Source of the DNA: an uncultured Verrucomicrobiota bacterium
GTDB taxonomy: Bacteria; Verrucomicrobiota; Verrucomicrobiia; Opitutales; Opitutaceae
Reading direction: 5' to 3'
Length of the DNA: 40,671 bases
Assembly (NCBI GenBank): GCA_903906135.1
Contig: CAIVJE010000172.1
Location: 1 to 40,671 of the forward strand
In this document: positions 8,841 through 26,930 of the stretch, in pieces
How the letters are laid out: every line of letters starts with the position of its first letter
Position numbering within the stretch: the first letter of the stretch is position 1
Notes under the pieces: generated by a model
The model's database searches: none
What the model saw: only the letters and a program-made list of their open reading frames with translations
What the model was told of the DNA's origin: nothing
Translations under genes and position numbers: made by a program

Positions 8841-8874
8841 GCTCGGTTTGTAATATAATATATTACAAACGAGC
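8841..8874. terminator. Imperfect inverted repeat between convergent pil and HD genes
   Basis: GCTCGGTTTGTAATATA pairs with TATTACAAACGAGC, a stem of about 13-16 pairs with one bulged G and an AT loop. It lies between the end of the pil operon and the convergent HD gene, whose stop codon (8863-8865) is inside the right arm. It has no T-run on either strand, so a bidirectional or Rho-assisted terminator is only a suggestion. Confidence 0.45.
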
Positions 8875-9694: not shown

Positions 9695-12538
9695 TTACGG
9701 ACTAGCGGGAGTTTTTACCCCGACAGCTGGCAGTATTTTTACCCGCGAGGCACGGTCAGCGCTGAGATAAGTTTTGGCGAGCACGCTTAACTCTGCCGCC
9801 GTAATGGCTTCTAGATCGGGCAAGCGGGTGCGGGCCCACTCCAAGGCCTCAGGCTTCTCTTGCGCGCGGGCCAACACCGTGCCGCCCCAATAACCATTGG
9901 TCCGCAATGACTCTTTGACGGCTGTTAATGCGGGCTGACGGGCCCGATTGAGCTCTTCATCCGTCACCCCATGCTGCGCAAGATCATCGCCGAGAGTAAT
10001 AATCACTGCCGTAATTTTATCCGCTAATGTCGGATCCACGACGCAGCCGGCCTGAATGTAACCGTAGCCCGGGAAGATATCGCTCGCGTTGCTGCCGGCA
10101 CTCGGACTGTAAGTGCCGCCGATCTCCTCCCGAACTTTAACGCGCAAGCGATCGCTGAGCACGCTGGCCAGTAGATTAAGCCGGCGGGCGCGCTTGACGT
10201 CGAACCCATCGGTTGACGGCCAATAGATCACGACGTTGCCCTTGGGGATTTCCGTCGCAATCAGGTAGCTTTGATTAAAAGGCACCCGGGGAAAAGTTAA
10301 CTGCTTTAACTCCGTGAGCATCGGCTTCACCCCTCGCTGAGGCAAAGCGCCGAGCGTTTGCGCTACGGCCGAAATGGCCGCCTCGAGATCGAGGTCGCCG
10401 ACGAGTGATACCTCGATGGCCCCTTCGGCGAACTGCGGCGCGAGCCACGCTTTAGCTTCATTAAAATTTCGCGCCAACATGACTTCCTTCGCCGGTAAAC
10501 CAAAACGCGGATCACCACCGGCGAGTAAATTAGCCACCGCTGTTGCCATCGGACCGTTCGCCGTATGCGCAAAACCCAGATACATTTGGTCTACGCTTTT
10601 ACGTGACTGCCGCAGTGCCTCTGGTCGCCAACCGGCATCCGTCAAATACGCTGACGCTACTTGTAGCTGCAGCAGCAAATCATCGCGCGTCGTCCCACCA
10701 GCAATATTAAAAGCATCAGCCCCCACCTGAAACTGCGCACCGACATTTTTCCCAGCCATAATCCGACGGAGCTCATCGACGCTATGCCGCCCTAAGCCGC
10801 CCGCACTAAATGTGCCGCCGACCAAGGCCGCGAGTCCCCGCTGCCCACTCGGCTCGGTGATCAAACCATGACCGACGCGGATGTTGCTCCGAATCCGGCC
10901 CGCTTCAAAATCGGTTTTCTTTAGATTGAGTTTCACGCCATTAGCAAAGGCGACGAGCTCGACGTCGAGGTCAGCAACATGCGTGCGCTGCACCACTTTT
11001 CCCGGCACGCCCCACTGCGCATAGGCCCAGACAACCTCGGCGTGTCCGGCGGGCGCCGCCACCGCCGTAGCTTGAGATTTTTTATAGGCGGCGGCAATGG
11101 CCTCGTCGGCTGCAGCGGGGAGCAGGGCATTACCGCTCACCAGCACAAAACGACCGGGAGCGGCATAAGCGCTGCGCAATGCGTCCAAGCAGGCCGACGC
11201 GGTCAGTTGATCAAGGGCGGGTTGATAAAGCGCCCGCTCCACCGCTGGGTGCGTGAAGACCTCCTGGTCCATGAGCCCATCCAAAATTTCCCCAGCCAAA
11301 GCCCCAGAATATCGGGTCGCGACCGTCTTGACGGCCTGATCGAGGCTATTCGTAAAATTAGCGACGACCTCTTTTAATTCACCTGGCTGAAAACCATGCA
11401 TGAGTGCGCGGCGTAATTCTTGTTCGCCTACCGCCAGCGCGGCTGCCCATTGCTCAGGCTTGGCGGTGAGATCAATGCCCGCCTCTCGCATAAATTTAAA
11501 CTCATCGGAAATATTGGCCCGCGCACTGCTGAAGGGAGCCCCCTCTTGCTTAGCCAGTTCACTGAAACGTCGATTGAGCATCGCGATGGCCACTTGCTGA
11601 GGAAGCTCCTTGAGGCGATTAGCCGCCGTATCCGGCCGCGCGACAAACGGGATCAGGCTCGTGATACTAATGCTCGTAGCCGGCGATTCTGGTTCTGCAT
11701 GATAGTGGGCACGCACGCCCGAAAAAGTTGGCACCACCCCAATCTCTGGTGCCGGAACTGCCGGGGCCCGCGCCACAAGTGGAGCAAAAGCCGTGCTGAT
11801 CAGGGACGTTAATACCGCTGGATCAAAATCACCGACCGCCACCACTGTCATCCGCTCAGGTCGGTACCATGTATTCCAAAAATCGGTAAAGCGGGCTCGA
11901 GGAGCCTGCTCAATCACCGCAGGCAAACCGATCGGTAGCCGCTGGGGCAAACGCGTCTGGCCAAGCATGAATGTAAATTGCGCAAGGAAGGTGCGAGCCC
12001 CTACATTGTCCCGCGTTCGTTTCTCGCTCATAATAATCCCCCGCTCCTTGTTAATCTCCTCCTCGAGGAGCAAGAGACCGCCCGCATAATCCGCAAACAC
12101 TCGGATCCCTTCGGTTAATGTCGCGACATCCGTGTGCGGGAGCTCCAGCAAATATTGCGTGCGATCAAACCCAGTGGAAGCGTTCGTGTCGCCCCCAAAG
12201 CTCATGCCCATCCGCTGAAAAAATTCCACGAGCGTACCCGGCGCATAGTGCTGGCTACCGTTGAAAGCCATGTGCTCGAGAAAATGCGCGACTCCGCGTT
12301 GATCCTCATTCTCCATGAGCGAGCCCGCCTCGACGAGTAAGCGCAACGATGCGCGCCCCCGAGGCTCTTGGTTAGGATAGATCACGTAACGCACGCCATT
12401 GGGGAGCGTGCCAAAATGCGCGGCCGGATCAACCGGCAGATCGCTCGTCGCTTGAGCGAAGGGTCGCGCGGGGGCGGCGGCGACCAGCACCGCTAGCCCC
12501 AATTGAAAAGCAATGAGGAGCGATAATTTAATTTTCAT
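9695..12538 (-). CDS. M16-family zinc metallopeptidase (PqqL/insulinase-like), periplasmic
   Basis: A 947-residue protein from the ATG at 12538 (an in-frame TTG four codons upstream is less likely, because the ATG opens a clean signal peptide with KIKLSLLIAFQLGLAVLVAAA). The inverted zinc motif HFLEH lies at about residues 85-89, and the third ligand is probably the Glu in NKERGIIMSE some 75 residues later. Two M16 halves follow: an active N-terminal half and an inactive C-terminal half opening with FANGVKLNLKKTDFEAGRIR. Full-length exported M16 proteins such as PqqL and FusC cleave peptides in the periplasm, FusC cutting imported ferredoxin. It is downstream of an orphan LuxR gene and the TonB/TlpA genes, so it may process the material those import (inference). 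Confidence 0.9.
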   Translation of the reverse strand: MKIKLSLLIAFQLGLAVLVAAAPARPFAQATSDLPVDPAAHFGTLPNGVRYVIYPNQEPRGRASLRLLVEAGSLMENEDQRGVAHFLEHMAFNGSQHYAPGTLVEFFQRMGMSFGGDTNASTGFDRTQYLLELPHTDVATLTEGIRVFADYAGGLLLLEEEINKERGIIMSEKRTRDNVGARTFLAQFTFMLGQTRLPQRLPIGLPAVIEQAPRARFTDFWNTWYRPERMTVVAVGDFDPAVLTSLISTAFAPLVARAPAVPAPEIGVVPTFSGVRAHYHAEPESPATSISITSLIPFVARPDTAANRLKELPQQVAIAMLNRRFSELAKQEGAPFSSARANISDEFKFMREAGIDLTAKPEQWAAALAVGEQELRRALMHGFQPGELKEVVANFTNSLDQAVKTVATRYSGALAGEILDGLMDQEVFTHPAVERALYQPALDQLTASACLDALRSAYAAPGRFVLVSGNALLPAAADEAIAAAYKKSQATAVAAPAGHAEVVWAYAQWGVPGKVVQRTHVADLDVELVAFANGVKLNLKKTDFEAGRIRSNIRVGHGLITEPSGQRGLAALVGGTFSAGGLGRHSVDELRRIMAGKNVGAQFQVGADAFNIAGGTTRDDLLLQLQVASAYLTDAGWRPEALRQSRKSVDQMYLGFAHTANGPMATAVANLLAGGDPRFGLPAKEVMLARNFNEAKAWLAPQFAEGAIEVSLVGDLDLEAAISAVAQTLGALPQRGVKPMLTELKQLTFPRVPFNQSYLIATEIPKGNVVIYWPSTDGFDVKRARRLNLLASVLSDRLRVKVREEIGGTYSPSAGSNASDIFPGYGYIQAGCVVDPTLADKITAVIITLGDDLAQHGVTDEELNRARQPALTAVKESLRTNGYWGGTVLARAQEKPEALEWARTRLPDLEAITAAELSVLAKTYLSADRASRVKILPAVGVKTPASP

Positions 12539-12608
12539 AGAATGGATCAACGGCAGGGAATGATTACGCGAATTGAGGCAGGAAATAGATTTAGCCAGCC
12601 AACCCAGC

Positions 12609-12851
12609 TTAGGCTGGCTCCCGCAAGGCGGCGATCAGCCGCATCCGGGAAGATAGTCCAAATTTTCGTAAGCAGGCGCTAACTTGGTACTTCACCGTTG
12701 GTTCGGCCTTATGCAAAAACTGAGCGATTTCTTTGTTACTGTAACCAGCGCATAGATAAGAAAGCACCTGCTGTTCTGCCCCCGTCAGCGGTTCTTGCGT
12801 CAGAGCTGACGTGATGGGGCGCGGTAATAAACAATAACGCTCAGCGACCAT
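12609..12851 (-). CDS. Orphan LuxR-type helix-turn-helix protein
   Basis: An 80-residue protein that is essentially only a LuxR/GerE DNA-binding domain. Residues 21-78 run PLTGAEQQVLSYLCAGYSN then KEIAQFLHKAEPTVKYQV and end KFGLSSRMRLIAAL. The LT..E..VL..L..G.SNKEIA..L....TVK pattern is diagnostic. There is no receiver, PAS or autoinducer domain, so any input must come from dimerisation with another protein or from dosage. Such stand-alone domains (GerE is one) are known regulators. It lies between the poly-thioredoxin gene and the M16 peptidase gene on the same strand, about 70 bases before the peptidase ATG, and may control the peptidase. It could also be a remnant of a longer regulator, but no flanking pieces are visible. 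Confidence 0.85.
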   Translation of the reverse strand: MVAERYCLLPRPITSALTQEPLTGAEQQVLSYLCAGYSNKEIAQFLHKAEPTVKYQVSACLRKFGLSSRMRLIAALREPA

Positions 12852-12880
12852 ACGAGAATTAGTTTTAACTACGCATCAAA

Positions 12881-12942
12881 ACCGATCGCGCCTTCAGACA
12901 ACTTAGTCGCGGCCAAACCGTGGCCGACACGGCCCGATCGGT
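12881..12942 (-). terminator. Nested inverted repeat after the three-domain TlpA gene
   Basis: The outer arms ACCGATCG and CGATCGGT (eight pairs) enclose an inner stem CGGCCA-AACCG-TGGCCG. Read on the minus strand it lies between the poly-TlpA gene and the LuxR gene and is followed by TTTT. It could terminate the TlpA transcript or serve as an operator for the LuxR gene; sequence alone does not decide. Confidence 0.4.
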
Positions 12943-12973
12943 GATGAGGAACGTTTAAAATTAATAGGCCCAT

Positions 12974-14800
12974 TCAGCGCATGGCTTCACGCTGCTTTAA
13001 ATCTTCCGCCCCTTTGGCGATGAGGGCCGCATCAACTTTAATACCGGCCTTCGCTAAAGCGGCATCGAGGATCGCTTCGCCCTTGAGATAACCGGTGACG
13101 AGCGCGACAACTTTGCCGTCACGATCGATGATGAACTGCTGCGGGATGCCGCCGACCCCGTAGAGTTTATGCGAGGCCCGATCAGGCCCGCGCTCCTGCG
13201 GATCATGCGAAAAATTAATATCGGGATACTGTGCCTGATTCCGCTTCACCCATGTATCGAATTTCTTGCGATCATCGGAAGTGCAGGAAGCCAACACCAC
13301 GACTCCTTGATTTTTGTAATGAGCCGCCACTTCCTGGGTATGCGGCATCGAAGCGATACAGGGTCCGCACCAAGTAGCCCAGAAATCAAGAATGACGACC
13401 TTGCCCCGATAATCAGAAATCTTCACGGCCTTGCCGGTGGCGTCGGTGGCGATAAAATCAGGGGCCGCGGCACCGAGCTTCAACATCGCCACCCTGGCCT
13501 CCGGCGGCTTCTCCTTGGTCTCCTCAGCGGAAAAGATCTTCTTTGGCATATCCTCCGGCTTTAGCTTCACCCCCGCGCGGAGAAGCAAATTGCCGAGTGA
13601 TTCGGCGCTCTGCGGGCCACTGCCCACATAGAAACCGAGGAATTTGCCTTGGGCGTCGATGACAACATTGTTCGGGACCGGCGCCATGGCGCCGCCGGAG
13701 AACGCCATGGGAATGACCTTGCTGTAGTGCGCGCGATTGGCCTCCCGAAAAGCTTTTTTATCCTCGGCTGTCATTTCCTCCATGGACTCTTTGGGTGGCT
13801 TCGGGGGCGCACCGGCCGGATCGAACAGCACCGGATAGGCCAGCTTGGCCGCCGCGGGTGCATGATACTTATCAAAGTCAGCGCGTGAGCCATAAGAGGC
13901 GAGCTCGACAAACAGGACGCCCTGATCGGCATAGCGGCGGGCCCAGGCATCTTGAAAAGCCACCATATCGTCAGGCCGAGCGCCGCGAGCCGAGCAGACC
14001 ATCAACACCACCGTCTTACCCTTGGTGAGCTCAGAAAATTTGACTGCAGAGCCATCAATAGCCTGCGCGGTAAAATCCGGCACCGGCAAACCTCGCTGCA
14101 GCTGAGCAAAGCCTTCCCGAAATTTTGGCTTGGGATTTTTTTTCTCCGCCTCGACGGCAGCCAGACGGTCGGCCTCTTCCTCGGCGGCAGCCTTGAGCTG
14201 CCGTTCACCCGCCACGACGCGGGCGGCCTCAACCTTGACGCCGGCCTTAGCCAGCGCGGCTTCGGTGCGAGCATCTTCTTCACCGCCGTTGCCGACGATT
14301 GTCGCCGTGATGACGCCATCGCGACCGATGACAAACTGCGTAGGAATGCCCGTGACGCCGTAAAGCTTGCTGGAGGCGCGCTGCTCGAACGTGGTGGAGC
14401 CGCGCTCATTAGGATCAAAGACAAATTTTAGTTTTGGGTATTTTGCTTGGTTCGCCGGAATCCACTTCTTGAACATGGCAATGGTGTCGCTCGTACCGGA
14501 AGCCACGACGACGACCTCTTGATCAGCATATTTGGTGGCAATGGCATTAGTGTGCGGCATCGAGGCAATGCACGGTCCGCACCAGGTAGCCCAGAAATCG
14601 AGAATGACAACCTTGCCCTTGAAGGACGAGAGGCGGACCTGCTGGTCGTGAATGTCATGCATCACGAAATCTGGCGCGACCGCTCCAGCGGCGAGCGTAG
14701 CGATTGGTTGGTTAACTGCTTTTGCCATTTGCATCTGGGCACAAGCCAGAGTGGCAACGCAGCTGAAAACACCAAATACGAGTGAATGGATTGATTTCAT
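12974..14800 (-). CDS. Periplasmic protein with three tandem TlpA-like thioredoxin domains
   Basis: A 608-residue exported protein (signal peptide about residues 1-21) of three TlpA/AhpC-TSA-type thioredoxin folds. Domain 1 (about 38-190) has WCGPC at 73-77 and the cis-Pro loop GIPTQF around 153. Domain 2 (about 236-415) keeps the fold markers (PVPDF, FDPAG, a PVPNN Pro loop) but has no CxxC: its active-site position reads VCSARGARPDD. Domain 3 (about 440-590) has WCGPC at 477-481 and GIPQQF. A charged linker (AAAEEEADRLAAVEAEKKN) joins the first two. TlpA-like proteins reduce disulfides in the periplasm when fed by a DsbD-type carrier, and a DsbD-family gene lies at 22607-24823. Domains 1-2 resemble domains 3-4 of the adjacent upstream protein, suggesting block duplication. 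The substrate is unknown. Confidence 0.85.
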   Translation of the reverse strand: MKSIHSLVFGVFSCVATLACAQMQMAKAVNQPIATLAAGAVAPDFVMHDIHDQQVRLSSFKGKVVILDFWATWCGPCIASMPHTNAIATKYADQEVVVVASGTSDTIAMFKKWIPANQAKYPKLKFVFDPNERGSTTFEQRASSKLYGVTGIPTQFVIGRDGVITATIVGNGGEEDARTEAALAKAGVKVEAARVVAGERQLKAAAEEEADRLAAVEAEKKNPKPKFREGFAQLQRGLPVPDFTAQAIDGSAVKFSELTKGKTVVLMVCSARGARPDDMVAFQDAWARRYADQGVLFVELASYGSRADFDKYHAPAAAKLAYPVLFDPAGAPPKPPKESMEEMTAEDKKAFREANRAHYSKVIPMAFSGGAMAPVPNNVVIDAQGKFLGFYVGSGPQSAESLGNLLLRAGVKLKPEDMPKKIFSAEETKEKPPEARVAMLKLGAAAPDFIATDATGKAVKISDYRGKVVILDFWATWCGPCIASMPHTQEVAAHYKNQGVVVLASCTSDDRKKFDTWVKRNQAQYPDINFSHDPQERGPDRASHKLYGVGGIPQQFIIDRDGKVVALVTGYLKGEAILDAALAKAGIKVDAALIAKGAEDLKQREAMR

Positions 14801-14835
14801 GATAGAGGGAAAAAGAGTTAAACGATGTAAAAAAA

Positions 14836-17295
14836 TTACTTGGCGACGGCAGCCGGCGTGACCGCTGGCTTGGCCGTGTAGCCAGCTGGGAAAAAGATCT
14901 TCGGCTTATCCTCGTAAGCGAGCTCGACGCCAGCGATCATCAGTAAATTAGCCAAGCCATCATGGGTAGCCTCGCCGTAGCCGACATAGGACCCGACCAG
15001 CTTGCCCGCGGAATTGATGACAAGCGTCGTCGGTAGCGGCGTGACCGCGCCGCGAGTCAGCTGCATCATAATCGTCTTACGCATCGCCTCTTTGTCACCT
15101 GAGGGTGGTTTACCGACCGGATCAAAGGCCGTAGCAAAAGTATATTTATTTTTATTTTCGATTAGCCACTTGTCGTAGTTCGCACGGGTATCGAAACCGC
15201 AGACCCCGAGGATAACTACGCCCTTAGCGCCATACTTGCGGTGGATCTCTTCGTAGTGCGGCATAGCCTTTTGGCACGGCCCGCACCACGTGGCCCAGAA
15301 ATCAAGAATGACTGTTTTGCCTTTAGCGTAGTCGGAAAATTTTGCCTCTTTGCCTTCAGGAGTAAGCACGGTGAAATCGGGCACCAATTCACCCGCCTTA
15401 AGTTTACCGTAACTTTCGTAGAAGGGAGCTCGGGGTTTCTTAACCGCTGCGGCCGTGGTCACCGCGCGAGCTTGTTCCTGCTTGGCCACCTGCGCCTTGC
15501 CCTCAGCCAAAGTCGCGTCGTTCACTTTTACCCCAGCCGCGGCCAGCGCATATTCGGTCCGCGCATCCCCCGCTCCGCCGTTACCCACCACCACACCGGT
15601 GATCTTGCCATCGCGGCCGATCACAAACTGCGTCGGGATGCCCACCACATGATAGAGCTTCGCGGAAGCGCGTTCTTCAAAATTGAGCGACTCGCGTTCG
15701 TTCAGATCGTACGCAAAGCGAATGTCAGGGTATTTCGGCTGATTCAGAGGAATCCATTCCTGAAACTTCGCGATCGAGTCGCTCGTCCCGGCGCCCAGCA
15801 CAATGACATCCTGGTCTTTATATTTCGCGGCGATCTCCTGCGTATGCGGAAACGAGCTAATGCACGGTCCACACCAAGTGGCCCAAAAATCGAGGATCAC
15901 TACCTTGCCTTTAAAATCGGAAAGGCGGACATCCTTACCCGCAACATCCTTCATCAGGAAATCTGGGGCCATTGCGCCGACGGCGAGCAGCGCGCCCTTC
16001 GGGGCCGCGGCCGGATTATTAGGCATGGGTATGATCGTAGCGGCAGACATCACCCCGCCGGCGGTAACCGCGGCAGGTTTTTCGCGAGCCGCAAAAATTT
16101 CGGCCATAACTTTGTCCGCCGCCGCCTTATCTTCGGCGGTGAGCTTAAGATCAGCGACCTGCAAGCTTGCGCGCATCCAACCAGCGATCTTCGGGCCCAT
16201 GCCAATCAGGCCACCGCGAAAATAGCCGCCGGCATTCACCACCATGAAAGCGGGATACATGCCGATGCCAAATTTCATATAGGAAAGGGACTCCATGACA
16301 GCCTTCCCTGCTGGATCCCAAGCGACGGTGTAACCCAGGCCGGCCGCATTAGCTTTTGCCCAGGTGTCGAATTCAGCCCGATCGGTAGCCACGTTGATGG
16401 CCCAAACCGCTAAACCCTGGTCTTTGTAGTTGGCGGCGAGCTTAGCAAAATCTTCGTTGGGCGAACGCGCTCCGGTCCAGAAGGAAATAAGCACCGGCTT
16501 GCCCTTGAAGGACGAGAGTTTCACTTCCTTGCCGTCTACGCCGATAGCGGCGAAATCGGCCACCTCATCGTCAAATTTAAGTGAGCCTAACCGAATGGTT
16601 GGCGGGCGCGCGGCTGTGCCTTTAGCACTGGCAGGAATAGCCCCAATCGGCATTGCCGCCGTCTTGCCTATCATGGGAATGGACTGACGCTCACGTTTTT
16701 CCTCCGGCGGTAAATGCGAGGTATCAACCGGCACACCACCTTTGGCGAGCAGGCGTGTGACGTGCGGGTTTTCGCCCGGGCCACCGCCGGAGGTGGAGCC
16801 GACCACCTTCCCGTCTTTGTCGATCAGGAAAAGCGTGGGGAAACCACTGACACCATACTGAGTATTAAAGACCGATTTATCCCAACCGTCCTTGCCGGCC
16901 GGGTCATGCGCGGTGAGGAATTTATATTTAGCGGCGTTGCGCTTCACCCAGCCATCATAATGGGCACGCGAGTCATCGGCACAGACGGCCAGAATTACGA
17001 GGCCGTCTTTGGCATGCTTCTCGGCTAGTTCGCTGTTATGGGGCATAGAGGCCACACACGGCCCGCACCAGGTCGCCCAAATATCAATCAAGACGGTCCG
17101 GCCGCGAAAATCAGATAGTTTGATCGCTTGGCCATCGGGGCCCACGACGGTAAAATCAGGGGCGAGCTCGCCCACCTTTGGACCAACCTGATGAACGCTC
17201 GGCGTAGAAGTCGGCACGATAGCCGGCTCCGCGCCTGCCGGCATCACCGTTAAACAAAAAATGCTAAGCGCAACCGACCAGAGGGATTTTTGCAT
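14836..17295 (-). CDS. Periplasmic protein with four tandem TlpA-like thioredoxin domains
   Basis: An 819-residue exported protein taking the ATG at 17295, where MQKSLWSVALSIFCLTVMPA forms a signal peptide (a longer in-frame opening at 17355 adds residues unlike a signal). Four TlpA-like domains: domain 1 (about 40-190) WCGPC at 76-80 with GFPTLF; domain 2 (about 238-385) has the fold but SFWTGARSPNED in place of a CxxC; domain 3 (about 438-590) WCGPC at 474-478 with GIPTQF; domain 4 (about 635-795) WCGPC at 670-674. It is 71 bases downstream of the TonB receptor gene, with a hairpin between, and 35 bases upstream of the three-domain paralogue. Likely role: periplasmic disulfide reduction in service of the receptor, electrons from DsbD (inference). 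Chains with several thioredoxin folds are uncommon outside protein disulfide isomerases. Confidence 0.85.
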   Translation of the reverse strand: MQKSLWSVALSIFCLTVMPAGAEPAIVPTSTPSVHQVGPKVGELAPDFTVVGPDGQAIKLSDFRGRTVLIDIWATWCGPCVASMPHNSELAEKHAKDGLVILAVCADDSRAHYDGWVKRNAAKYKFLTAHDPAGKDGWDKSVFNTQYGVSGFPTLFLIDKDGKVVGSTSGGGPGENPHVTRLLAKGGVPVDTSHLPPEEKRERQSIPMIGKTAAMPIGAIPASAKGTAARPPTIRLGSLKFDDEVADFAAIGVDGKEVKLSSFKGKPVLISFWTGARSPNEDFAKLAANYKDQGLAVWAINVATDRAEFDTWAKANAAGLGYTVAWDPAGKAVMESLSYMKFGIGMYPAFMVVNAGGYFRGGLIGMGPKIAGWMRASLQVADLKLTAEDKAAADKVMAEIFAAREKPAAVTAGGVMSAATIIPMPNNPAAAPKGALLAVGAMAPDFLMKDVAGKDVRLSDFKGKVVILDFWATWCGPCISSFPHTQEIAAKYKDQDVIVLGAGTSDSIAKFQEWIPLNQPKYPDIRFAYDLNERESLNFEERASAKLYHVVGIPTQFVIGRDGKITGVVVGNGGAGDARTEYALAAAGVKVNDATLAEGKAQVAKQEQARAVTTAAAVKKPRAPFYESYGKLKAGELVPDFTVLTPEGKEAKFSDYAKGKTVILDFWATWCGPCQKAMPHYEEIHRKYGAKGVVILGVCGFDTRANYDKWLIENKNKYTFATAFDPVGKPPSGDKEAMRKTIMMQLTRGAVTPLPTTLVINSAGKLVGSYVGYGEATHDGLANLLMIAGVELAYEDKPKIFFPAGYTAKPAVTPAAVAK

Positions 17296-17314
17296 AAATA
17301 AAATAAAACAGACA

Positions 17315-17344
17315 CGCCGCCATGCGAAGAGTTGCATGGCGGCG
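17315..17344 (-). terminator. Strong hairpin between TonB receptor and poly-TlpA genes
   Basis: CGCCGCCATGC and GCATGGCGGCG form a perfect 11-base-pair stem around an eight-base loop. On the minus strand it is followed, after TGTCTG, by TTTTATTTTATTT and then the poly-TlpA ATG. It may act as a partial terminator or as a 3' stabiliser of the receptor mRNA, giving unequal expression of the two genes. Confidence 0.6.
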
Positions 17345-17366
17345 CGTAAAACCAATCACTTGATAA

Positions 17367-20300
17367 TTAAAGTGGCAGAATGAAGGCGAACTCGTAACTG
17401 CGGCCGAGGATAAACTGACTGTGTAAGCCCGCGTTGAAACTCCACATGGTATCAGAGAACGGTGGCTCTTGATCGAAAACATTATTTACGCCCAAGGTGA
17501 CGCGCAGACCCTTACCATAACTGCGCCATAGACCTTTGCGGAATTCATAGCCGCCCCGTACATCGAGTTTGGTAATGGAAGGCGTGGGGTAAAAAATAAC
17601 CGCCGTGCTATTAGCCACCAAGTTGCTACCCGCGCTGTTAGAATTGAACCCATCCAGATAAGAAACAAAGGCGGAGGCGTTCCAATCACCCTTATTCCAA
17701 AAAATGGCTGCATTCATGCGCCACTTGGGCGGCGCGGCGGTATCGTCTTCGAGAATAACCGCCGGCTGACCTGGGGCCAATTGACGCGTCGCTTCGAGCG
17801 TACGGCTCGCCGCTAGATTCAAGCGCCAGCGACCCAATTGATCGCTGGGCAGACGGTAATCTACGACGAAATCCATGCTCCGATTAACCACTTGGCCGAA
17901 GTTCACGAACACGCGACTGATGGACGTGATTTGTCCGGGCTGATTGAGCGCAGTATCGGCCGGCGTGACCGCGGCCCGCGTGATGCGATTAGTGAAGAGC
18001 GCTTCATTGTTAATGATCGTCTGTGCCGTGATCAACTGCAGCACATCCTTCTGCACCGTATCATAATAATTTACCTGTAAGCTGAGCCCTTTGACCCAAG
18101 AAGGCTCATAAACAATACCGGCAAAAGTATTTTTCGAAAGCTCGGGCTGAGGATTCAAATTAGAACCCCGTGATTCTATAATCCCAGTGGTCGATGTTGG
18201 CGTACGCCGTGGATCGAGCAAGGTGGAGGTCACGATTGATGGCGCGACCATGTACTCCGTAATACCAGGGGCCCGGAAGCCCTCGCTCCAATTTGCGCGC
18301 ACCAACAACGACTGCACCGGAGTCCAAGAGACTCCATACTTCGGCACCGTTTTGGAGAAGCGGCCGTTGTCTTCATAACGTTCAGCTAGATTTAAATCTA
18401 AGCGACGCAGCAGGGGCTGCGCATTGGGCTTGCCCACGATCGGCACACTCAACTCGGCAAACATGGCCTTCGTCGTTTGCTCGCCGGTGACAGTCGTCAT
18501 CGTCGCGACCGGAATCAGCACGGAAGAATAATTGACCGCGGTGCTCTGCATCTCGCCCTTCAAATTAGAGCCACCGAAAGCCATTTTCATCGAGCCGCCC
18601 CAGAGATCGACCAGATTACCGTTGGCGGAAAAATCTAGCCCAGTCTGCTTCGAAACTGAGGCCAGCGACGGATAAATCGCGAGCGTCTCGAGCAAGGCCA
18701 CTTGGGAAGGGGCCCCGGGGGCACTGGAATCGATAAAGGGATTAAAGCGCTGGGCCGGATCAGCCGCGCTCAGCATCGCGGCGAACGGAGCCGGATTAAA
18801 ATTACGCGAGATCTGCCGAACTTTTTGCTCTTCCCAATTGGTCCCCAGCTCCCATTCCCACGTTTGGCCAAATTTACCCCGCAAACCAGCCGTGATCGCG
18901 TCATCTAAAGTCCGGACGCGCTGGGATTGCGCACCCCACTCCGGGAGAATCATCCCGATGCTCACATTCTGATTAAAAGGATTATAGGCCGCGGGCAAAA
19001 TCGCGGCGGAGCCGAAACCACCCGTGATCGAATTCGCCCCGGGTTGCGCCGTATAAAAACTGCGCGTCTCGCTGGTGCGGAGACTGGTGAAAACATCCAA
19101 ATGATCGTTGACGCTGTAATTAAAATTACCGCTCAAACCCTTCCGCTTTGATTCTGGAATCAAATCGAGATATTCCGCCGTGTTGGCTCGGCGCTGCTGC
19201 GAGGCATTCACCAGGGAAGCGCCAGGAGCCGGCGTCAGCACCGTCTGAAATTGCGCTACCGTTGGGGTGCCCGTAGCCCCGACGGGAACCATCACAACCC
19301 GCACACCGGGAAGTGCATCAAAATTTCCTGAGACGGTCCCGCCGGACGCTTGGATCACAGCCGGAAAACCCCAATTAAGCCGCCAATCGACGCCATTTCT
19401 AGCCAAACCGGTTGCCGTCATCGTGCCGACTAGCATGCCGCTATGATTTTGGTTTTTAGAGAAAGAACGCTGAGAAGCTTTGAGATCTTGTCGGTCATAA
19501 TACTCGATCGCTACCGAGCCGCTCAATTTTCCATAAGAAAATCCACTAATGACGGAAACATTCCGCTCCGCGCCGCCACCATGCTGGGAGACTTTATAGC
19601 CGCCTGATAATTCGGTGCCGGTGAAATTCTTTTTGAGGATGATGTTGATAACCCCCGCCACGGCATCAGCGCCATAAATGGCTGAGGCCCCATCAGTAAT
19701 GACCTCAATGCGATCAACCATGCCTAATGGAATGGTGTTCAAATCAACGAAACCCTGCCGCGTGTCCGTCGAACGATTGCCGTTGCCAGATTGCGCCGCC
19801 CGCCGGCCGTCAACCAACACGAGCGTCGAACCAGAACCAAGGCCGCGTAAGCTGACGCCTGAAACACCCGTCTGCCCTGGAGGAGCAGCGGAGGAGCCCA
19901 AGACGAAATTGAACGCAGGATTGGTCGTCTCAGTACGTTGGCCGAATTCAGGATTCAATTCGTTCGGCGCGCTTCCGCGACCGGAGGCAATACCCGCATA
20001 CGTTTGCGGAATTTGATTAAGAAAATCGGAGAGAGTCATCGAACCAGTGGCGCGAATATATTCTTTGTCGTACGAACTAACCGGGGAAGGCCCTTCGGTT
20101 TCCGTTTGCCGAATGCGGGTACCCAAGACCGAATAAGTTTCGAGCTTAAGGGCTCCCGTTTCACTTTTTGTCACCTTGGCCGTCGGGACCATGACCTGAC
20201 GGCTCTCGACGTTTTTTGCGCGGTCAGGATTAAGGCGCAGACCAAGGGCCCCAGTTTTTTCATCCTCGATTACCACCAAGCCCGTGCCGACCACCATTTG

Positions 20301-20552
20301 CTCTAAAGCCTGGCGCGGGGTCATTTCACCGGACACGGCATGAGTACTAATGCCTGCTACCGCATCGGTGGGCACCAAGACTTCGCTGCCCGATTGATTC
20401 GAGAAATCCTTAATTGCAGCAGTGGCGGAAGCCGCAGGAATATTAAATTTCTTAGCATCAGCGGCTTGCGATACTCCAACCAAGGCTAGAGCGCACAGCG
20501 CTGCTAACGCGTAAGAATTTCGAAGAAGACGAAACGAGACTAGATCGGTCAT
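17367..20552 (-). CDS. TonB-dependent receptor with N-terminal STN signalling domain
   Basis: A 1061-residue outer-membrane receptor. A signal peptide ends near residue 30 (ALVGVSQA). An STN domain (about 36-110) reads KFNIPAASATAAIKDFSNQS and GISTHAVSGEMTPRQALEQM; such domains pass the ligand-bound signal to a FecR-type regulator. A probable TonB box region (LETYSVLGTRI, about 138-147) precedes the plug domain (about 155-310), which contains SGVSLRGLGSGSTLVLVDGRR and ends IYGADAVAGVINIILKK. The beta barrel follows to the C-terminus, which ends with an aromatic-rich strand and a terminal Leu. Upstream lie fecR and an ECF sigma gene; downstream lie the poly-TlpA genes. The ligand cannot be predicted; no SusD-like partner is present, which argues against a polysaccharide system of the SusCD kind. 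Confidence 0.93.
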   Translation of the reverse strand: MTDLVSFRLLRNSYALAALCALALVGVSQAADAKKFNIPAASATAAIKDFSNQSGSEVLVPTDAVAGISTHAVSGEMTPRQALEQMVVGTGLVVIEDEKTGALGLRLNPDRAKNVESRQVMVPTAKVTKSETGALKLETYSVLGTRIRQTETEGPSPVSSYDKEYIRATGSMTLSDFLNQIPQTYAGIASGRGSAPNELNPEFGQRTETTNPAFNFVLGSSAAPPGQTGVSGVSLRGLGSGSTLVLVDGRRAAQSGNGNRSTDTRQGFVDLNTIPLGMVDRIEVITDGASAIYGADAVAGVINIILKKNFTGTELSGGYKVSQHGGGAERNVSVISGFSYGKLSGSVAIEYYDRQDLKASQRSFSKNQNHSGMLVGTMTATGLARNGVDWRLNWGFPAVIQASGGTVSGNFDALPGVRVVMVPVGATGTPTVAQFQTVLTPAPGASLVNASQQRRANTAEYLDLIPESKRKGLSGNFNYSVNDHLDVFTSLRTSETRSFYTAQPGANSITGGFGSAAILPAAYNPFNQNVSIGMILPEWGAQSQRVRTLDDAITAGLRGKFGQTWEWELGTNWEEQKVRQISRNFNPAPFAAMLSAADPAQRFNPFIDSSAPGAPSQVALLETLAIYPSLASVSKQTGLDFSANGNLVDLWGGSMKMAFGGSNLKGEMQSTAVNYSSVLIPVATMTTVTGEQTTKAMFAELSVPIVGKPNAQPLLRRLDLNLAERYEDNGRFSKTVPKYGVSWTPVQSLLVRANWSEGFRAPGITEYMVAPSIVTSTLLDPRRTPTSTTGIIESRGSNLNPQPELSKNTFAGIVYEPSWVKGLSLQVNYYDTVQKDVLQLITAQTIINNEALFTNRITRAAVTPADTALNQPGQITSISRVFVNFGQVVNRSMDFVVDYRLPSDQLGRWRLNLAASRTLEATRQLAPGQPAVILEDDTAAPPKWRMNAAIFWNKGDWNASAFVSYLDGFNSNSAGSNLVANSTAVIFYPTPSITKLDVRGGYEFRKGLWRSYGKGLRVTLGVNNVFDQEPPFSDTMWSFNAGLHSQFILGRSYEFAFILPL

Positions 20553-20605
20553 GGTGTGTAGTTATTGGCCCCCACAAAGTGCGGATGGCTGAGTTTATCG
20601 GAGAG

Positions 20606-20629
20606 TAACTAAAGTATAATCTTTAGTTA
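20606..20629. promoter_or_regulatory. Perfect inverted repeat upstream of the TonB receptor gene
   Basis: TAACTAAAG and CTTTAGTTA are perfect nine-base arms around TATAAT; on the minus strand the same site contains TATACT, which could serve as a -10 element. It lies 54-77 bases before the receptor ATG in the FecR-receptor gap, so it is a candidate operator, promoter or leader hairpin. No convincing -35 is visible. Confidence 0.5.
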
Positions 20630-20656
20630 TTTAGTAAAGATAGCAAATATCAAATT

Positions 20657-20677
20657 CACCCCTCCTTGCGGGGGGTG
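20657..20677. other. GC hairpin and Shine-Dalgarno-like motif upstream of the receptor gene
   Basis: CACCCC and GGGGTG can pair across nine bases. On the minus strand the loop region reads AAGGAGGGGTG, one of the few strong Shine-Dalgarno-like sequences in the window, followed by a TTG-initiated eight-codon frame ending in TAA inside the inverted repeat at 20606-20629. On the plus strand the hairpin is followed by CTTTTTTG. It could be a leader-peptide region, or a chance match. Confidence 0.3.
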
Positions 20678-20816
20678 CAAATCTTTTTTGAAATATGACA
20701 GGAGTGACCAATCAGCTAGAGCGATCATCCAATAGATCACCGTGGGGTTTTCTACACCACGCCCCAGCCGCTAAAATCTGTTACGACTATTTTGCCGCCG
20801 GGCGCTAAACTTAAGC

Positions 20817-21905
20817 TCAAGGCAATCGCCGCAAAATGATTAAATGCTTACCGTGAGCCTCAGCCTGCAGGTCAAAACTCTCGCCTACGATTCGCGCAAA
20901 CCCCTCAGGATTGTCCGAGCGGAAACTCCCCGTGATCTGCCAGGCACCCACCAGCGGATCTTCAATTATGAGCTGCGTTAGATTATGTCGATTGAGCAAG
21001 GCCACCGCCTCACTGAGCGTAGTGCCGCTGAAATCCTGCCGAGTGTCACGCCAAGCAAGCTGTTGATTCATCTCCGCTTCAGATACCGCTTGGGGCTCAG
21101 CCACCGATTCAAGGCGAGCTGGCGCCGATCCTTTAATTGATTTGGACGATCTTAATTTAGTCAAAGCGACAAATCGCTTGCCCGCATTGACCCGGACGAC
21201 GCGGCGATCGCCTCCCGCGGAGGCCTGTCCCATCAAGGCATGGCCGACATCAACCGCACCTTCTTTCACAAAAACCTCGACGGCCGAGGACTGCAGCTGC
21301 ACCGAGAAAGCCGTCCCCACGGCACGGACCGCAATACCATTAGCCTCCACGTAAAATGGGCGCGTGGCGTCCTTCTTTACGCGAAAATAGGCCTCTCCCT
21401 TGAGGAGCGTTACGCGACGCGACGCCGCCTCATAATGCACCGAGATTTCCGCCCCCACTTTCAGCTCTACAATGGATCCATCCGGCAACTGGCGAATAGC
21501 ATTATTAGCCACAATCGAGGTTTCTTGAATCGGGGCCTTCGCTGCCATGCGCTTCATCTGCCCGGCTTCCCCAAGAGTCGAGCGCAGGAAAAATAATCCG
21601 CTGACTAAAATAATCCCGGCCGCGGCCGCTCCTTGCAGCTGATGCCGGCGCCGGCGTCTAGCCCGCACCGCCAATCCAGCCAGCACCGCGCTGATCGCCC
21701 CGCCGCCTTGGACTCGATCAAACACAGACCAAGCCTCGGTTAGCCGATCAAAAGCATCCGCATGACGCGCATCCGCACCCAGCCAATCTTGAAAAATCTG
21801 CTGCTCGGCGGAGGTTAGACCCGCATCACAGCGCGTCACCCAATCAGCGGCCGCCGCTTCAATCGCCGGCGGCGAAATTTGCCCAGAGGTCGAGGAAGTG
21901 CTCAT
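20817..21905 (-). CDS. FecR-family anti-sigma/transmembrane sensor
   Basis: A 362-residue protein of the FecR class, which holds or activates a partner ECF sigma factor in response to a TonB receptor. An N-terminal cytoplasmic DUF4880-type segment (about 12-60) contains AAADWVTRCDAGLTSAEQQ and WLGADARHADAF; a transmembrane helix lies at about 92-110 after RARRRRH; the periplasmic FecR domain (about 125-225) reads IRQLPDGSIVELKVGAEI, then VTLLKGEAYFRVKKD and VRAVGTAFSV. The C-terminal part (about 290-360) DFSGTTLSEAVALLNRHN looks like an STN/DUF4974 domain able to contact the receptor's STN. The gene overlaps the sigma gene by four bases (ATGA). All three parts of a Fec-type cascade are therefore contiguous. 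Confidence 0.92.
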   Translation of the reverse strand: MSTSSTSGQISPPAIEAAAADWVTRCDAGLTSAEQQIFQDWLGADARHADAFDRLTEAWSVFDRVQGGGAISAVLAGLAVRARRRRRHQLQGAAAAGIILVSGLFFLRSTLGEAGQMKRMAAKAPIQETSIVANNAIRQLPDGSIVELKVGAEISVHYEAASRRVTLLKGEAYFRVKKDATRPFYVEANGIAVRAVGTAFSVQLQSSAVEVFVKEGAVDVGHALMGQASAGGDRRVVRVNAGKRFVALTKLRSSKSIKGSAPARLESVAEPQAVSEAEMNQQLAWRDTRQDFSGTTLSEAVALLNRHNLTQLIIEDPLVGAWQITGSFRSDNPEGFARIVGESFDLQAEAHGKHLIILRRLP

Positions 21906-22441
21906 GGTTGGCTCAGTTGCCGGCGGAGTGAATCGGCCACGCGCCGCAACCCACGGGCCGCTTGCACTTGGACCGTTTGCTCGGAAAGCCCGAGCCGAGC
22001 GGCGATATCTTTTTGGGAGACCCCACGAAGTTTACGGAGAATAAAAATTTCACGACAGCGAGCCGGTAACGCATCGATCGCGTCCACCAGCAGGGCAATT
22101 TCCTGCTGACGAGCAGCGGCCGCGGCGGCATCCGGTCTATCATCTATGACGAACAGGTGAGATAAATCTGTTACGACCTTAATCGGTGAACGGCGATCGT
22201 GCCGGACGATGTCGAGCGCCAGATTGCGTGCGATGCGAAATAAAAAAGCCCGCGCCGACTGAATAGGGTGCCGCGCCCGCGCCTGCCAAATGCGCAGATA
22301 AGATTCCTGCACCACATCGTCCACATCCCGCACGGCCGGGAAGCGCCCGCGAACGTAGGCCCGTAGCGAGGTGTCATGCGGCTGCACTTCATCTTTGAAC
22401 CATTGCTCGGGCGGCGCCGGCGGTTTAGGGGGCAAGTTCAC
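21902..22441 (-). CDS. RNA polymerase ECF sigma factor (FecI-like)
   Basis: A 179-residue sigma-70 factor of the extracytoplasmic-function type with only regions 2 and 4. Region 2 (about 25-95) contains LRAYVRGRFPAVRDVDDVVQ then ESYLRIWQ and ARAFLFRIARNLALDIVRH; region 4 (about 123-175) contains ALPARCREIFILRKLRGVSQ then KDIAARLGLSEQTV. The start is a GTG at 22441 without a Shine-Dalgarno. Its stop overlaps the fecR start, so the two are co-translated. It likely directs transcription of the receptor and poly-TlpA genes; the target promoter sequence is not evident from one locus. Confidence 0.93.
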   Translation of the reverse strand: MNLPPKPPAPPEQWFKDEVQPHDTSLRAYVRGRFPAVRDVDDVVQESYLRIWQARARHPIQSARAFLFRIARNLALDIVRHDRRSPIKVVTDLSHLFVIDDRPDAAAAAARQQEIALLVDAIDALPARCREIFILRKLRGVSQKDIAARLGLSEQTVQVQAARGLRRVADSLRRQLSQP

Positions 22442-22606
22442 AAATAGAAAAACTAGGGTCTAGCTTTCTCGCTCGCCTCAAACCAGCCCAAATAAATCCG
22501 CCCCTTAATCCGATCGGCCTATCGCCAGGGTCTTGTGTTTGGAGCCGACTCGCGCATCTTATCGCGTAGCCTTCGCTAAAATATTTCTCTCCTCGCTCCT
22601 TACCCG

Positions 22607-24823
22607 ATGAATATTATTCGCCACCTCTCAGCCTTACTCCTCCTGCCTGCGCTGCTTTGGGCCGCTGAATCCCCAGGGGTAAAAAATGGCTCTGTCCGGG
22701 TCTCTCTCGTAGCGGCATCGGCCGCGATCGAAGCGGGTAAGCCTTTCACCCTTGCCCTGCGAATGCAGCACGACCCGCACTGGCACAGTTACTGGATCGC
22801 TGCGGGCACCGGTTACCCAACCTCCATCAACTGGACCTTGCCGGCTGGATTTAAGGCCGGCGAAATTCAATGGCCGACGCCCCAAATTCTGCGCGATTCC
22901 TCCGGAAAAATCGTCGGCAATGGCTACAGCGAAGAGTCCTTCCTCCTCGTGGAAATCATCCCGCCAGCCCTGCCTGAGCTTCGGGCCGGCGAGAATCCAG
23001 GCCAAACATCGAGCGGCCAACAGGCCGCCACCGCGCCCTTGGCTCCCGGCACAAAAATCAAACTAGCGGCCGCCATCGAGTGGCTCATGTGCCAAGATGT
23101 TTGTATGCCCGGTGAGGCTAAACTAGAAATCTCCCTCGACGTCGCCCCCGCCACCCAACCTGACGCCCGATGGGCCCAGCCGATTACTCAGGCCCGGGCG
23201 CAACTGCCCATCGCCGCCACCGGGTGGAATATCACCGCCACGCACGACGACAAAAATGTTACCCTACGGCTCACCCCAAAGTCGGGTAATACGCACAAGC
23301 CAACGAATCTGCATTTCTTCGCGACCGATGCTCTCACCGATTATACTCAGCTTGCGACAGTGACCGCTGACAATGACGGCTGGGTATTAATTCTGCCACT
23401 CGATGCCGCCGCCGATAAAACTACGAAACGCCTAACCGGAGTGCTCGCCTCAGCCAACGGCTGGGCGGCCGGAGCTAGCTACGGCGGTCTGGTGATCGAT
23501 GTGGCGTTTAGTGCCGATGAAGTGCCGACCCTCCCCACGGTCACGCGCCCAACATCAAACCTGACCCCACCGCCCTCTGCACTCGCCGCGCCCACCAGTT
23601 TGCTCGCCACCCTCGGCTTGGCTTTCATTGGTGGCTTAATTTTGAATCTGATGCCCTGCGTTTTCCCTGTGCTCGGCATCAAGATCCTCGGCTTTGTTAA
23701 CCAATCCGGTAATGACCGTAAAAAAATCACCGCGCATGGTCTGACTTTTACGCTCGGCGTGCTGGTTTCATTTTGGGCGCTAGCGGGCGCGCTTCTCATG
23801 CTCCGCGCCGGCGGCGCTCAACTCGGCTGGGGATTTCAACTCCAATCGCCCGTTTTTGTTTTTGGCATGGCCGTGTTCCTGCTGATTTTTGCCCTCAACT
23901 TAAGTGGGCTTTTTGAAGTCGGGCTGTCCGCCACGAGTGTCGGCGGCAATCTGCAGATGCAGGATGGTTTTGCCGGATCATTTTTCACCGGCGCTTTAGC
24001 CACGCTCGTCGCGACTCCCTGCAGTGCCCCCTTTCTGGCGCCAGCGCTGGGGGCGGCTCTGTCCCTCTCCGCGGGACAAGCTTTCCTGATTTTTACCGCG
24101 ATCGCCCTTGGTCTCGCCCTGCCCTACCTGCTGTTTTCAATTTTTCCGCAGGCGATCAAATTGCTCCCAAAACCCGGCGTATGGATGGAAACGTTTAAGC
24201 AATTCATGGCCTTCCCACTTTATGCGACCGTCGGCTGGTTGTTGTGGGTACTCGCCGGCCAGACTAAAGATGATGACAACGCCCTGTTATTAATCTCCTT
24301 CGGCTTCGTGCTCGTCGCGATGGCCGCTTGGGCCTACGGCCGTTTTGGTCAGGCATCAGGAAAACCTCAGCGGCAATTAGCCGGCCGAATCTGCGCGGCG
24401 CTCCTCCTCGTGAGCGGTCTTTATACGGGTTGGCCCAAAACAACCGCCACTCCCACGACGGCCGGCAGCTACCAAGTCACTTGGGAGAAATGGAGTCCCG
24501 CGGCCATCGCCGCGGCCCAAGCCGCGGGCAAATTTGTCTATGTAGATTTCACCGCGCGCTGGTGCGCCACTTGCCAAACGAATAAGGCGACCGTGTTTCA
24601 CCACGACGCAGTGCTCGCCGCGCTGGCGCAGCACCAGACCGTGTTACTCCGCGGCGATTGGACGAATCGTGATCCCCTTATCACCGCCGAGCTCGCCCGC
24701 TGGAACCGCTCCGCGGTGCCCTTCAATTTGATCTACGCTCCAGGGAAGGCCCAACCAATCATTCTGCCCGAACTGCTCACCCCCCAGATCGTCCTCGATG
24801 CTTTAGCTCAAGCCGGAAAATAA
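22607..24823 (+). CDS. dsbD: DsbD-family thiol:disulfide interchange protein
   Basis: A 738-residue membrane protein carrying electrons from cytoplasmic thioredoxin to periplasmic thiol proteins. After a signal peptide (about 1-19) comes the periplasmic N-terminal domain, ending in WLMCQDVCMPGEA with C162 and C166. The transmembrane domain (about 332-608) has the two conserved motifs NLMPCVFPVLGIKILGF (C351) and TLVATPCSAPFLAPALG (C472). The C-terminal thioredoxin domain has ARWCATC with C653 and C656. The full set of three redox pairs is present. The N-terminal domain (SYWIAAGTGYPTSINW) resembles the longer ScsB-like form. It diverges from the ECF sigma gene across 165 bases. Placement beside two poly-thioredoxin genes suggests it is their electron donor (inference). 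Confidence 0.93.
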   Translation: MNIIRHLSALLLLPALLWAAESPGVKNGSVRVSLVAASAAIEAGKPFTLALRMQHDPHWHSYWIAAGTGYPTSINWTLPAGFKAGEIQWPTPQILRDSSGKIVGNGYSEESFLLVEIIPPALPELRAGENPGQTSSGQQAATAPLAPGTKIKLAAAIEWLMCQDVCMPGEAKLEISLDVAPATQPDARWAQPITQARAQLPIAATGWNITATHDDKNVTLRLTPKSGNTHKPTNLHFFATDALTDYTQLATVTADNDGWVLILPLDAAADKTTKRLTGVLASANGWAAGASYGGLVIDVAFSADEVPTLPTVTRPTSNLTPPPSALAAPTSLLATLGLAFIGGLILNLMPCVFPVLGIKILGFVNQSGNDRKKITAHGLTFTLGVLVSFWALAGALLMLRAGGAQLGWGFQLQSPVFVFGMAVFLLIFALNLSGLFEVGLSATSVGGNLQMQDGFAGSFFTGALATLVATPCSAPFLAPALGAALSLSAGQAFLIFTAIALGLALPYLLFSIFPQAIKLLPKPGVWMETFKQFMAFPLYATVGWLLWVLAGQTKDDDNALLLISFGFVLVAMAAWAYGRFGQASGKPQRQLAGRICAALLLVSGLYTGWPKTTATPTTAGSYQVTWEKWSPAAIAAAQAAGKFVYVDFTARWCATCQTNKATVFHHDAVLAALAQHQTVLLRGDWTNRDPLITAELARWNRSAVPFNLIYAPGKAQPIILPELLTPQIVLDALAQAGK

Positions 24824-24910: not shown

Positions 24911-24934
24911 TTCCCACCCCGCTTGAATTTCGTC

Positions 24935-25813: not shown

Positions 25814-25845
25814 AAGGCTCCGCAACGAACACGCGCCGGGGCACT

Positions 25846-26811: not shown

Positions 26812-26930
26812 AGAATTAATAAACCATAGAGACAAAGCCGCCGAAGGGCAGCGTCAAAAATCGGTGCCGCCGCGCGCCCGCCATTATCATGGGGCAACCC
26901 CGCCCAGCCTTCGCGCGCGCCCCGCCAGGC

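Follow-up and report, generated by a model that had tools for sequence, protein, structure and literature searches.

The window, that is, the whole stretch of 40,671 nucleotides analysed here, is contig C172 of a draft genome (2.8 Mb, 228 contigs, 94.7% complete), whose named relatives are Opitutaceae or Verrucomicrobia MAGs (Lacunisphaera, Opitutus, Cephaloticoccus, and Didemnitutus). According to their isolate names, several of these relatives came from lakes, a pond or groundwater. The genes of interest encode a sigma factor and its FecR-like partner, a TonB-dependent receptor, two exported proteins made of several thioredoxin-fold domains (poly-TlpA; T4 and T3), a small LuxR-type protein and an M16 peptidase (table 1). 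All genes from the sigma factor to the HD-domain protein lie on one strand, and the DsbD gene is divergent from the sigma gene. Apart from the HD-domain gene, this gene content had been read from the DNA letters in the original prediction, and both the open reading frames and the Pfam assignments agree with it.

Table 1. Features of the receptor/poly-TlpA locus; the start codons of T4 and of the M16 gene (TTG) are uncertain.
Feature	Position	Strand	Basis or remark
HD-domain protein, 3' of M16	8863..9522	-	Pfam; same place in close relatives
Exported single-chain M16 zinc peptidase, PqqL-like	9695..12550	-	Pfam M16 + M16_C
LuxR/GerE-type HTH protein, 80 aa	12609..12851	-	ORF 12851-12609; kept beside cluster in relatives
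T3, exported poly-TlpA: active, Cys-less, active	12974..14800	-	Pfam AhpC-TSA/Redoxin repeats
T4, exported poly-TlpA: active, Cys-less, active, active	14836..17355	-	Pfam AhpC-TSA/Redoxin repeats
TonB-dependent receptor, N-terminal STN	17367..20552	-	Pfam Plug + TonB barrel; STN by profile
Intergenic region 5' of receptor, presumed promoter	20553..20816	-	Conserved among close relatives
FecR-like anti-sigma factor	20817..21905	-	Pfam FecR 1.1e-15, DUF4880
ECF sigma factor (FecI type)	21902..22441	-	Pfam Sigma70_r2, r4_2
DsbD-family transmembrane electron donor	22607..24823	+	Pfam DsbD_N + DsbD_TM + Thioredoxin_7

Close relatives share much of this arrangement. The ECF sigma factor has a counterpart of 99% identity in G002, the intergenic region preceding the receptor gene shows a mean column identity of 86% (five sequences, two of them identical copies of one genome), and the gene for the 80-aa LuxR-type protein adjoins the cluster in several relatives. 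Two EamA genes are located 3' of DsbD according to Pfam. In an Rfam scan of 13 sources no riboswitch was detected, the sole match being one tmRNA.

The Domains of the Poly-TlpA Proteins and the Receptor

Seven thioredoxin domains, five of them with a WCGPC motif, had been counted beforehand, and the count held: T4 and T3 together contain seven AhpC-TSA stretches, and the five motifs were located at residues 96, 494, and 690 of T4 and at residues 73 and 477 of T3. The active domains are of the ResA/TlpA type, and both proteins carry thioredoxin-fold domains with WCxxC that are predicted, by eye from the N-terminus, to be exported. A structure model of T4 contained four thioredoxin folds (mean pLDDT 78.6), with a pTM of 0.36, so that the placement of the domains relative to each other is uncertain. 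At three loci from two genera (L082, L084, and L086), T4 and T3 form one fused gene with seven domains; in the fused proteins, T4 corresponds to the N-terminal ~800 residues (59-61% identity) and T3 to the C-terminal 570-595 residues (67-74% identity). The order in the fused form, namely active, Cys-less, active, active, active, Cys-less, active, equals T4 plus T3. The commonest order among poly-TlpA proteins was active, Cys-less, active, Cys-less, active, and departures from regular alternation were found in L114, L118, and L144.

The receptor had been assigned to the STN type. Its STN stretch remained below the Pfam cut-off (20.2 bits against 28.4), yet the assignment is upheld by the family profile, which matches the STN parts of the solved structures of HasR, FpvA, and FecA, and by the structure model (mean pLDDT 68.8), which has strand and helix elements at residues ~34-107, the STN region. 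A profile built from 28 receptors matched 32 solved sequences at E <= 1e-3, including CirA, BtuB, and enterobactin, heme, pyoverdine, dicitrate, and other receptors, and the matches to siderophore receptors in this profile search covered only the plug, the STN domain or short barrel stretches. Structures of both FusA and YddB are present in the PDB; neither was matched by the receptor profile at E 1e-3 among solved structures, a search in which a remote relative may be missed. A fold search with the receptor model also returned generic siderophore and SusC receptors among the matches listed (best 50). Against the SusC model, the receptor scored 25.9 (cut-off 368).

Linkage of the Receptor and Poly-TlpA across Genomes

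Conserved co-localisation in related genomes had been proposed as a check of the redox-coupled TonB import system that was originally predicted. We searched 150 genomes of the family for T4 (E 1e-60, 6 first-look candidates scored per genome) and for the receptor (E 1e-150, 5 candidates). T4 was matched in 36 genomes from 13 of the 49 genera, and the receptor in 37 genomes from 15 genera. Both were present in 34 genomes, compared with 8.9 expected, a comparison among related species of one family that are not independent, so that p-values exaggerate its significance. Only two genomes had T4 without a receptor match (G101 and G165), and three had the receptor without T4 (G077, G106, and G141). 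The two genes were on a common contig in 29 of the 34 genomes and no more than 10 kb apart in 28, while random placement would give at most 0.28 (these genomes, too, are related), and a chance neighbourhood was rejected on this basis. Within the genus (21 genomes), the receptor (56-100% identity) and T4 were found in 10 genomes each, and these two sets are identical. In a class-wide sample of 286 genomes (E 1e-100, three candidates scored per genome), T4 was found in six, all belonging to this family.

Moreover, a TlpA gene was located within 10 kb of 52 of the 64 distinct receptors. Eight of the other 12 have a contig end less than 2.5 kb away on at least one side (L120, L142, L149, L150, L151, L160, L165, and L173), and in L141 (G094) the poly-TlpA gene lies 16 kb from the receptor. 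L139, L161, and L170 have no TlpA gene near the receptor as far as the DNA reaches, so that there are at least three exceptions among the 64. The gene order is also regular: when the closest multi-domain TlpA gene was mapped for 28 receptors, it always lay 3' of the receptor, with the same orientation in 22 (at a distance of up to 150 bases in 20) and the opposite orientation in six. Genes in the pulled loci were called profile-first and labelled with profiles built from window-like proteins, which may overlook TlpA or M16 genes that are more distant. The neighbourhood is conserved in relatives, and the main objection foreseen to the original prediction, a neighbourhood without conservation, therefore falls away. 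The linkage is well beyond chance and supports the predicted system as a unit, whose core is the receptor plus poly-TlpA, often with DsbD.

An additional case was found in MAG OFTM314, recorded as Gammaproteobacteria, which has a sigma factor, FecR, the receptor and a TlpA protein of three domains at one locus (L167). The plug and barrel of this receptor, whose gene is split over two ORFs, share 50% identity with the window's receptor, and the other receptors of OFTM314 gave 24-28% (alignments of at least 400 columns). The signalling parts have a different affinity. The sigma factor was 47% identical to OFTM314's own, compared with 28-34% for the Opitutaceae ones compared, FecR was 37% identical to the local type versus 29-33% for Opitutaceae, and the STN domain scored best against OFTM314's local STNs. 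These comparisons fit an apparent transfer of the barrel and poly-TlpA as a unit into OFTM314; misbinning of the locus is possible. By eye, the genes neighbouring this locus resemble gltX and cysS.

Regulators, the M16 Peptidase, and Sulfur Genes around the Core

That the STN domain signals to FecR and the sigma factor had been part of the original prediction, and the co-variation of these parts supports it. For this analysis, we used those receptors whose upstream DNA spans 2.5 kb or more (46 of 64) and took receptor length as a proxy for STN. FecR was located within 3 kb of 21 of 22 receptors of STN length and was absent from that distance in 19 of 24 shorter ones; among these 19, 11 had a LuxR-type regulator of ~400 aa in its place. 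Broken or mis-sized ORFs account for the exceptions, as judged from the match starts. In L170, the only exception of STN length, the ORF is over-long and its match starts at residue 135; the five short exceptions (L120, L121, L132, L133, and L167) have cut, split or short ORFs, with matches that start at residues 1-55 and thus reach the STN region. The regulators are therefore exchangeable, as sigma, FecR, and STN are replaced in other genera while the receptor/poly-TlpA pair stays. The arrangement resembles FecIRA signalling (FecA, FpvA, and HasR) in having an ECF sigma factor, FecR, and an STN receptor in the window and many relatives, but it differs in that a reductase gene follows 3' of the receptor and that the signalling part is missing in other genera, where a LuxR-type regulator often takes its place.

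The M16 peptidase of the window has HFLEH at residues 89-93 and Glu at residue 176, and it matched PqqL (6ofs) at 1.1e-54 over residues 38-930 and FusC (6b03) at 3e-30. The corresponding positions in PqqL are 80-84 and 167, as given in the accessible part of PMC12731061. We sought this peptidase in 57 genomes, 45 of which had a match at E 1e-20; 40 matches were pulled and 39 loci mapped. Orthologues of 73-93% identity occur in nine other genus members, and in all 10 members, the window included, the gene lies beside parts of the cluster, with the gene order reshuffled in some. Nine of the ten genus genomes with the receptor and T4 have the orthologue (it is absent from G001), compared with one of the eleven others (G018), where single-domain TlpA genes lie beside it. 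No TlpA gene was detected by profile in 30 mapped loci around M16s of <=61% identity, and in L063 the M16 gene adjoins a different sigma/FecR/receptor set. In the M16 tree, the 12 linked peptidases, from the genus, G155, and UBA3033, formed one clade with a support of 100/100; the M16 of L063 was placed close outside the clade, and that of L097 was distant, on a long branch.

The M16 peptidase had been predicted as a part of the system, but a core role was rejected. All 10 orthologues of the genus, of FusC/PqqL type, lie beside parts of the cluster, but most other genera lack such an M16 there: of 37 poly-TlpA loci taken from them, only two (L097 and L103) contained an M16 gene, and one was located within 10 kb of only 10 of the 64 receptors, both counts being limited by contig ends. 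M16 is thus an accessory part that belongs chiefly to one clade. Because L097 (G094) carries a distant M16 ~0.4 kb from poly-TlpA and in L144 an M16 begins beside a second receptor/TlpA set, the peptidase may have been recruited more than once. In L056, a YeiH-type putative sulfate exporter, below the family cut-off, lies 3' of M16.

DsbD was present in 141 of the 150 family genomes. Among genomes with poly-TlpA or a second cysteine synthase and a few more, for which positions were entered, 25 have DsbD and T4 on the same contig, with no more than 10 kb between the two in 22 of them. The most recurrent unlabelled neighbour was this second cysteine synthase (19 loci, six genera), two examples of which scored 331-336 bits against NCBIfam cysKM (cut-off 344); it is distinct from the CysK with a score above the cut-off that 19 of 21 genus members possess. 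It was found in 37 of the 150 genomes, including 25 of the 36 with T4 (8.9 expected), and had no match in this genome or G002. In 24 of 28 genomes with both genes on the same contig it was located within 0.5 kb of DsbD, and because it adjoins DsbD even in eight of them that have no T4, it is the partner of DsbD first and of the import unit by association only. Since DsbD is near-universal and the synthase-DsbD pair exists in these eight genomes, both may be independent neighbours of the core. A PAPS reductase family protein was found in 18 of the 21 genus members, this genome included, with no match in G001, G002, and G007; nothing therefore indicates that organic sulfur is needed. Considering the occurrence of both CysK and PAPS reductase in the genus, this genome included, auxotrophy for cysteine or sulfate was rejected as a driver of the system.

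Proposed Reductive Processing of the Cargo and Its Alternatives

The single Cys of the window's receptor, residue 20, lies in the signal-peptide region. In the plug and barrel, 58 of the 64 receptors of this type have no Cys and six have one, the plug start having been located by its motif in 51 and set at residue 120 in the remainder. The other receptors in the same loci are likewise often Cys-free there (21 of 31), so we used this feature as a rule-out and not as a special trait. A poly-TlpA protein serving receptor disulfides was thus ruled out, and the client of the reductase is therefore the cargo or another protein.

In our judgement, there is about an even chance that the system is a TonB importer whose cargo is processed reductively in the periplasm. 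The receptor would capture a ligand outside the cell and TonB energy would pull it in, after which poly-TlpA would hold it between WCGPC and Cys-less domains and reduce it. The proximity of DsbD to T4 suggests that DsbD would hand cytoplasmic electrons to poly-TlpA. In the window, ligand binding would be signalled by the STN domain to FecR and its ECF sigma factor, and in this clade the PqqL-like M16 would cut a peptide part of the ligand. TlpA, ResA, and DsbE are thiol reductases fed by DsbD or CcdA, and poly-TlpA resembles them in domain family, WCGPC motif, and DsbD neighbour, but differs in having two to seven domains per chain, active and Cys-less mixed, and in being tied to a receptor. 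Catalytic and noncatalytic thioredoxin domains are combined in one chain in protein disulfide isomerase (a-b-b'-a'), and by analogy with it the Cys-less domains may bind cargo; the likeness is limited to a common domain fold, and the compartment of the isomerase is oxidising, whereas the one considered here would be reducing, presumably fed by DsbD. Bacteroidetes SusCD loci with TlpA and M16 genes offer a comparable neighbourhood of receptor, TlpA, and M16. They differ in that TlpA is multi-domain here and no SusD was found in the window, where Pfam scans of 20 genes returned none of that family.

The processing steps known to follow import are chiefly proteolysis (Fus) or the reduction of a metal. 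If the proposal of a reducing importer is true, a receptor with an electron-fed multi-thioredoxin partner would add cargo reduction as a defined import step, and it would give both a reason for the odd poly-TlpA proteins of these Opitutaceae and a handle on their uptake. In some Opitutaceae, this outer-membrane import receptor is usually encoded beside a linked thioredoxin chain, and the arrangement suggests that its cargo undergoes chemical reduction on arrival. Because the second cysteine synthase occurs with DsbD near many loci, our leading guess for the ligand is a disulfide- or thiol-bearing peptide or an organosulfur compound. A bolder version, which we regard as doubtful, would make the system a class of TonB import of its own: reduction would take the place of proteolysis or ABC capture as the committed periplasmic step, a DsbD-fed 'string of beads' reductase would hold the cargo by its Cys-less domains, and disulfide peptides or organosulfur compounds would serve as a sulfur source, converted to cysteine via the second, DsbD-linked cysteine synthase. 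No description of a receptor with a poly-TlpA partner was found in the titles and abstract openings of the open-access literature searched or in passages of PMC6793856, PMC11658791, PMC12731061, PMC10434189, and PMC13188914.

Among the alternatives, reductive metal release fares best, though it is somewhat unlikely. The receptor would import a ferric or copper chelate, a metallopeptide or a small metalloprotein, and poly-TlpA would reduce a disulfide or the metal and thereby free the latter. The best-known ligands of receptors with sigma factor, FecR, and STN are ferric siderophores and heme, and the folds nearest to the receptor model are those of the siderophore receptors FpvA, PirA, and PfeA, but the fold matches are of 10-14% identity and the profile matches to siderophore receptors are partial, as any such receptor might give. 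Neither the recurrent neighbours (by eye) nor the 20 scanned window genes included a siderophore-type ABC importer or a metal-binding gene. In favour of reduction after import, redox-active cytochrome c peroxidases in some FusA clusters were proposed to reduce the imported protein (Grinter et al. 2019; PMC6793856); a word search of that paper's main text for thioredoxin, disulfide, DsbD, FecR, and Verrucomicrobia returned nothing.

Piracy of proteins in the manner of Fus/PqqL, in which an imported protein would be unfolded by reduction and digested by M16, appears improbable. The Fus and PqqL-YddB systems, as described in the accessible text of PMC6793856, likewise pair a TonB receptor with an exported single-chain PqqL/FusC-type M16 that is thought to process the cargo. 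The constant presence of a PqqL-like M16 beside cluster parts in the window and nine other genus members, the single clade of 12 linked peptidases, and the possible repeated recruitment indicated by L097 and L144 agree with this explanation. Here, however, poly-TlpA is central and M16 is chiefly a matter of one clade, rare both in the poly-TlpA loci of other genera and near the receptors as a whole. The receptor profile had no match to FusA or YddB at the threshold given above, and family scans of the 20 window genes named no FusB (TonB-like) or FusD (ABC) partner.

Upkeep of the envelope's redox state is to our mind just as improbable as piracy. According to this explanation, poly-TlpA would keep periplasmic proteins or cytochromes reduced, as ResA and TlpA do, and would lie near the receptor only via shared regulation. 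The ResA/TlpA type of the active domains is consistent with such a role, but the receptor has no disulfide to maintain, the pair stays while the regulators change, and poly-TlpA accompanies this type of receptor in different genera and, it appears, even beyond the phylum. An ordinary neighbourhood without functional linkage, to which the occurrence of DsbD and the cysteine synthase pair independently of poly-TlpA might point, is contradicted by the conservation tests, with 28 of 34 genomes against at most 0.28 expected, and is highly improbable.

Receptor, TlpA and M16 combinations beyond the import cluster

A distantly related second receptor type was found paired with a single-domain TlpA of about 400 aa at several relatives' loci (table), and some of these loci also carried an orphan LuxR HTH. 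At L144 the set included the start of an M16 gene. The second receptor type with its single-domain TlpA is a parallel receptor/TlpA(/M16) combination. In L097 (genome G094), a poly-TlpA gene lay about 0.4 kb from a distant M16 gene. Because this M16 falls outside the linked M16 clade, the 12 M16s beside the import cluster, recruitment of M16 may have occurred more than once. An Opitutaceae-type receptor barrel and a 3-domain TlpA were present in the Gammaproteobacteria MAG OFTM314, joined to sigma, FecR and STN of the local type.

Regulators and sulfur-related genes

Regulators of about 400 aa with a C-terminal LuxR HTH adjoined poly-TlpA at L092 and other loci, namely those without sigma/FecR/STN; against NCBIfam, they reached the cut-off of no model. 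In many genomes of the family, DsbD was directly adjoined by a second cysteine synthase paralogue, both with and without the import cluster. This paralogue carries PCCH where PGPH is usual. The PAPS-reductase family was unmatched in G002 (99% complete), G001 (90%) and G007 (80%) and matched in the remaining 18 of the 21 genomes of the window's genus.

Other neighboring genes

EamA genes recurred near the import cluster (9 of 64 receptors).

Positions of features in the window and in relatives' loci (L)
Sequence	Position	Feature	Remark
Window	331-1422; 2114-3193	two PfkB-family kinases	opposite strands; close to window start
Window	24923-26835	two EamA-family transporters	adjoin DsbD
L056	1292-2224	putative sulfate exporter, YeiH-type	3' of M16; one relative
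L057	11552-14824	DsbD, second cysteine synthase	
L092	5273-8684	DsbD, second cysteine synthase	
L092	11814-13055	LuxR-HTH regulator	
L097	4817-11285	poly-TlpA, distant M16	
L144	14640-21202	second receptor type, single-domain TlpA	
L058	1-4900	second receptor type/single-domain TlpA	
L094	1857-7643	second receptor type/single-domain TlpA	
L096	1-2544	second receptor type/single-domain TlpA	
L101	1642-7828	second receptor type/single-domain TlpA	
L193	7400-11700	second receptor type/single-domain TlpA	
L167	8392-15121	receptor barrel, 3-domain TlpA	MAG OFTM314
L103	8290-8645	tmRNA gene	about 0.2 kb from poly-TlpA gene
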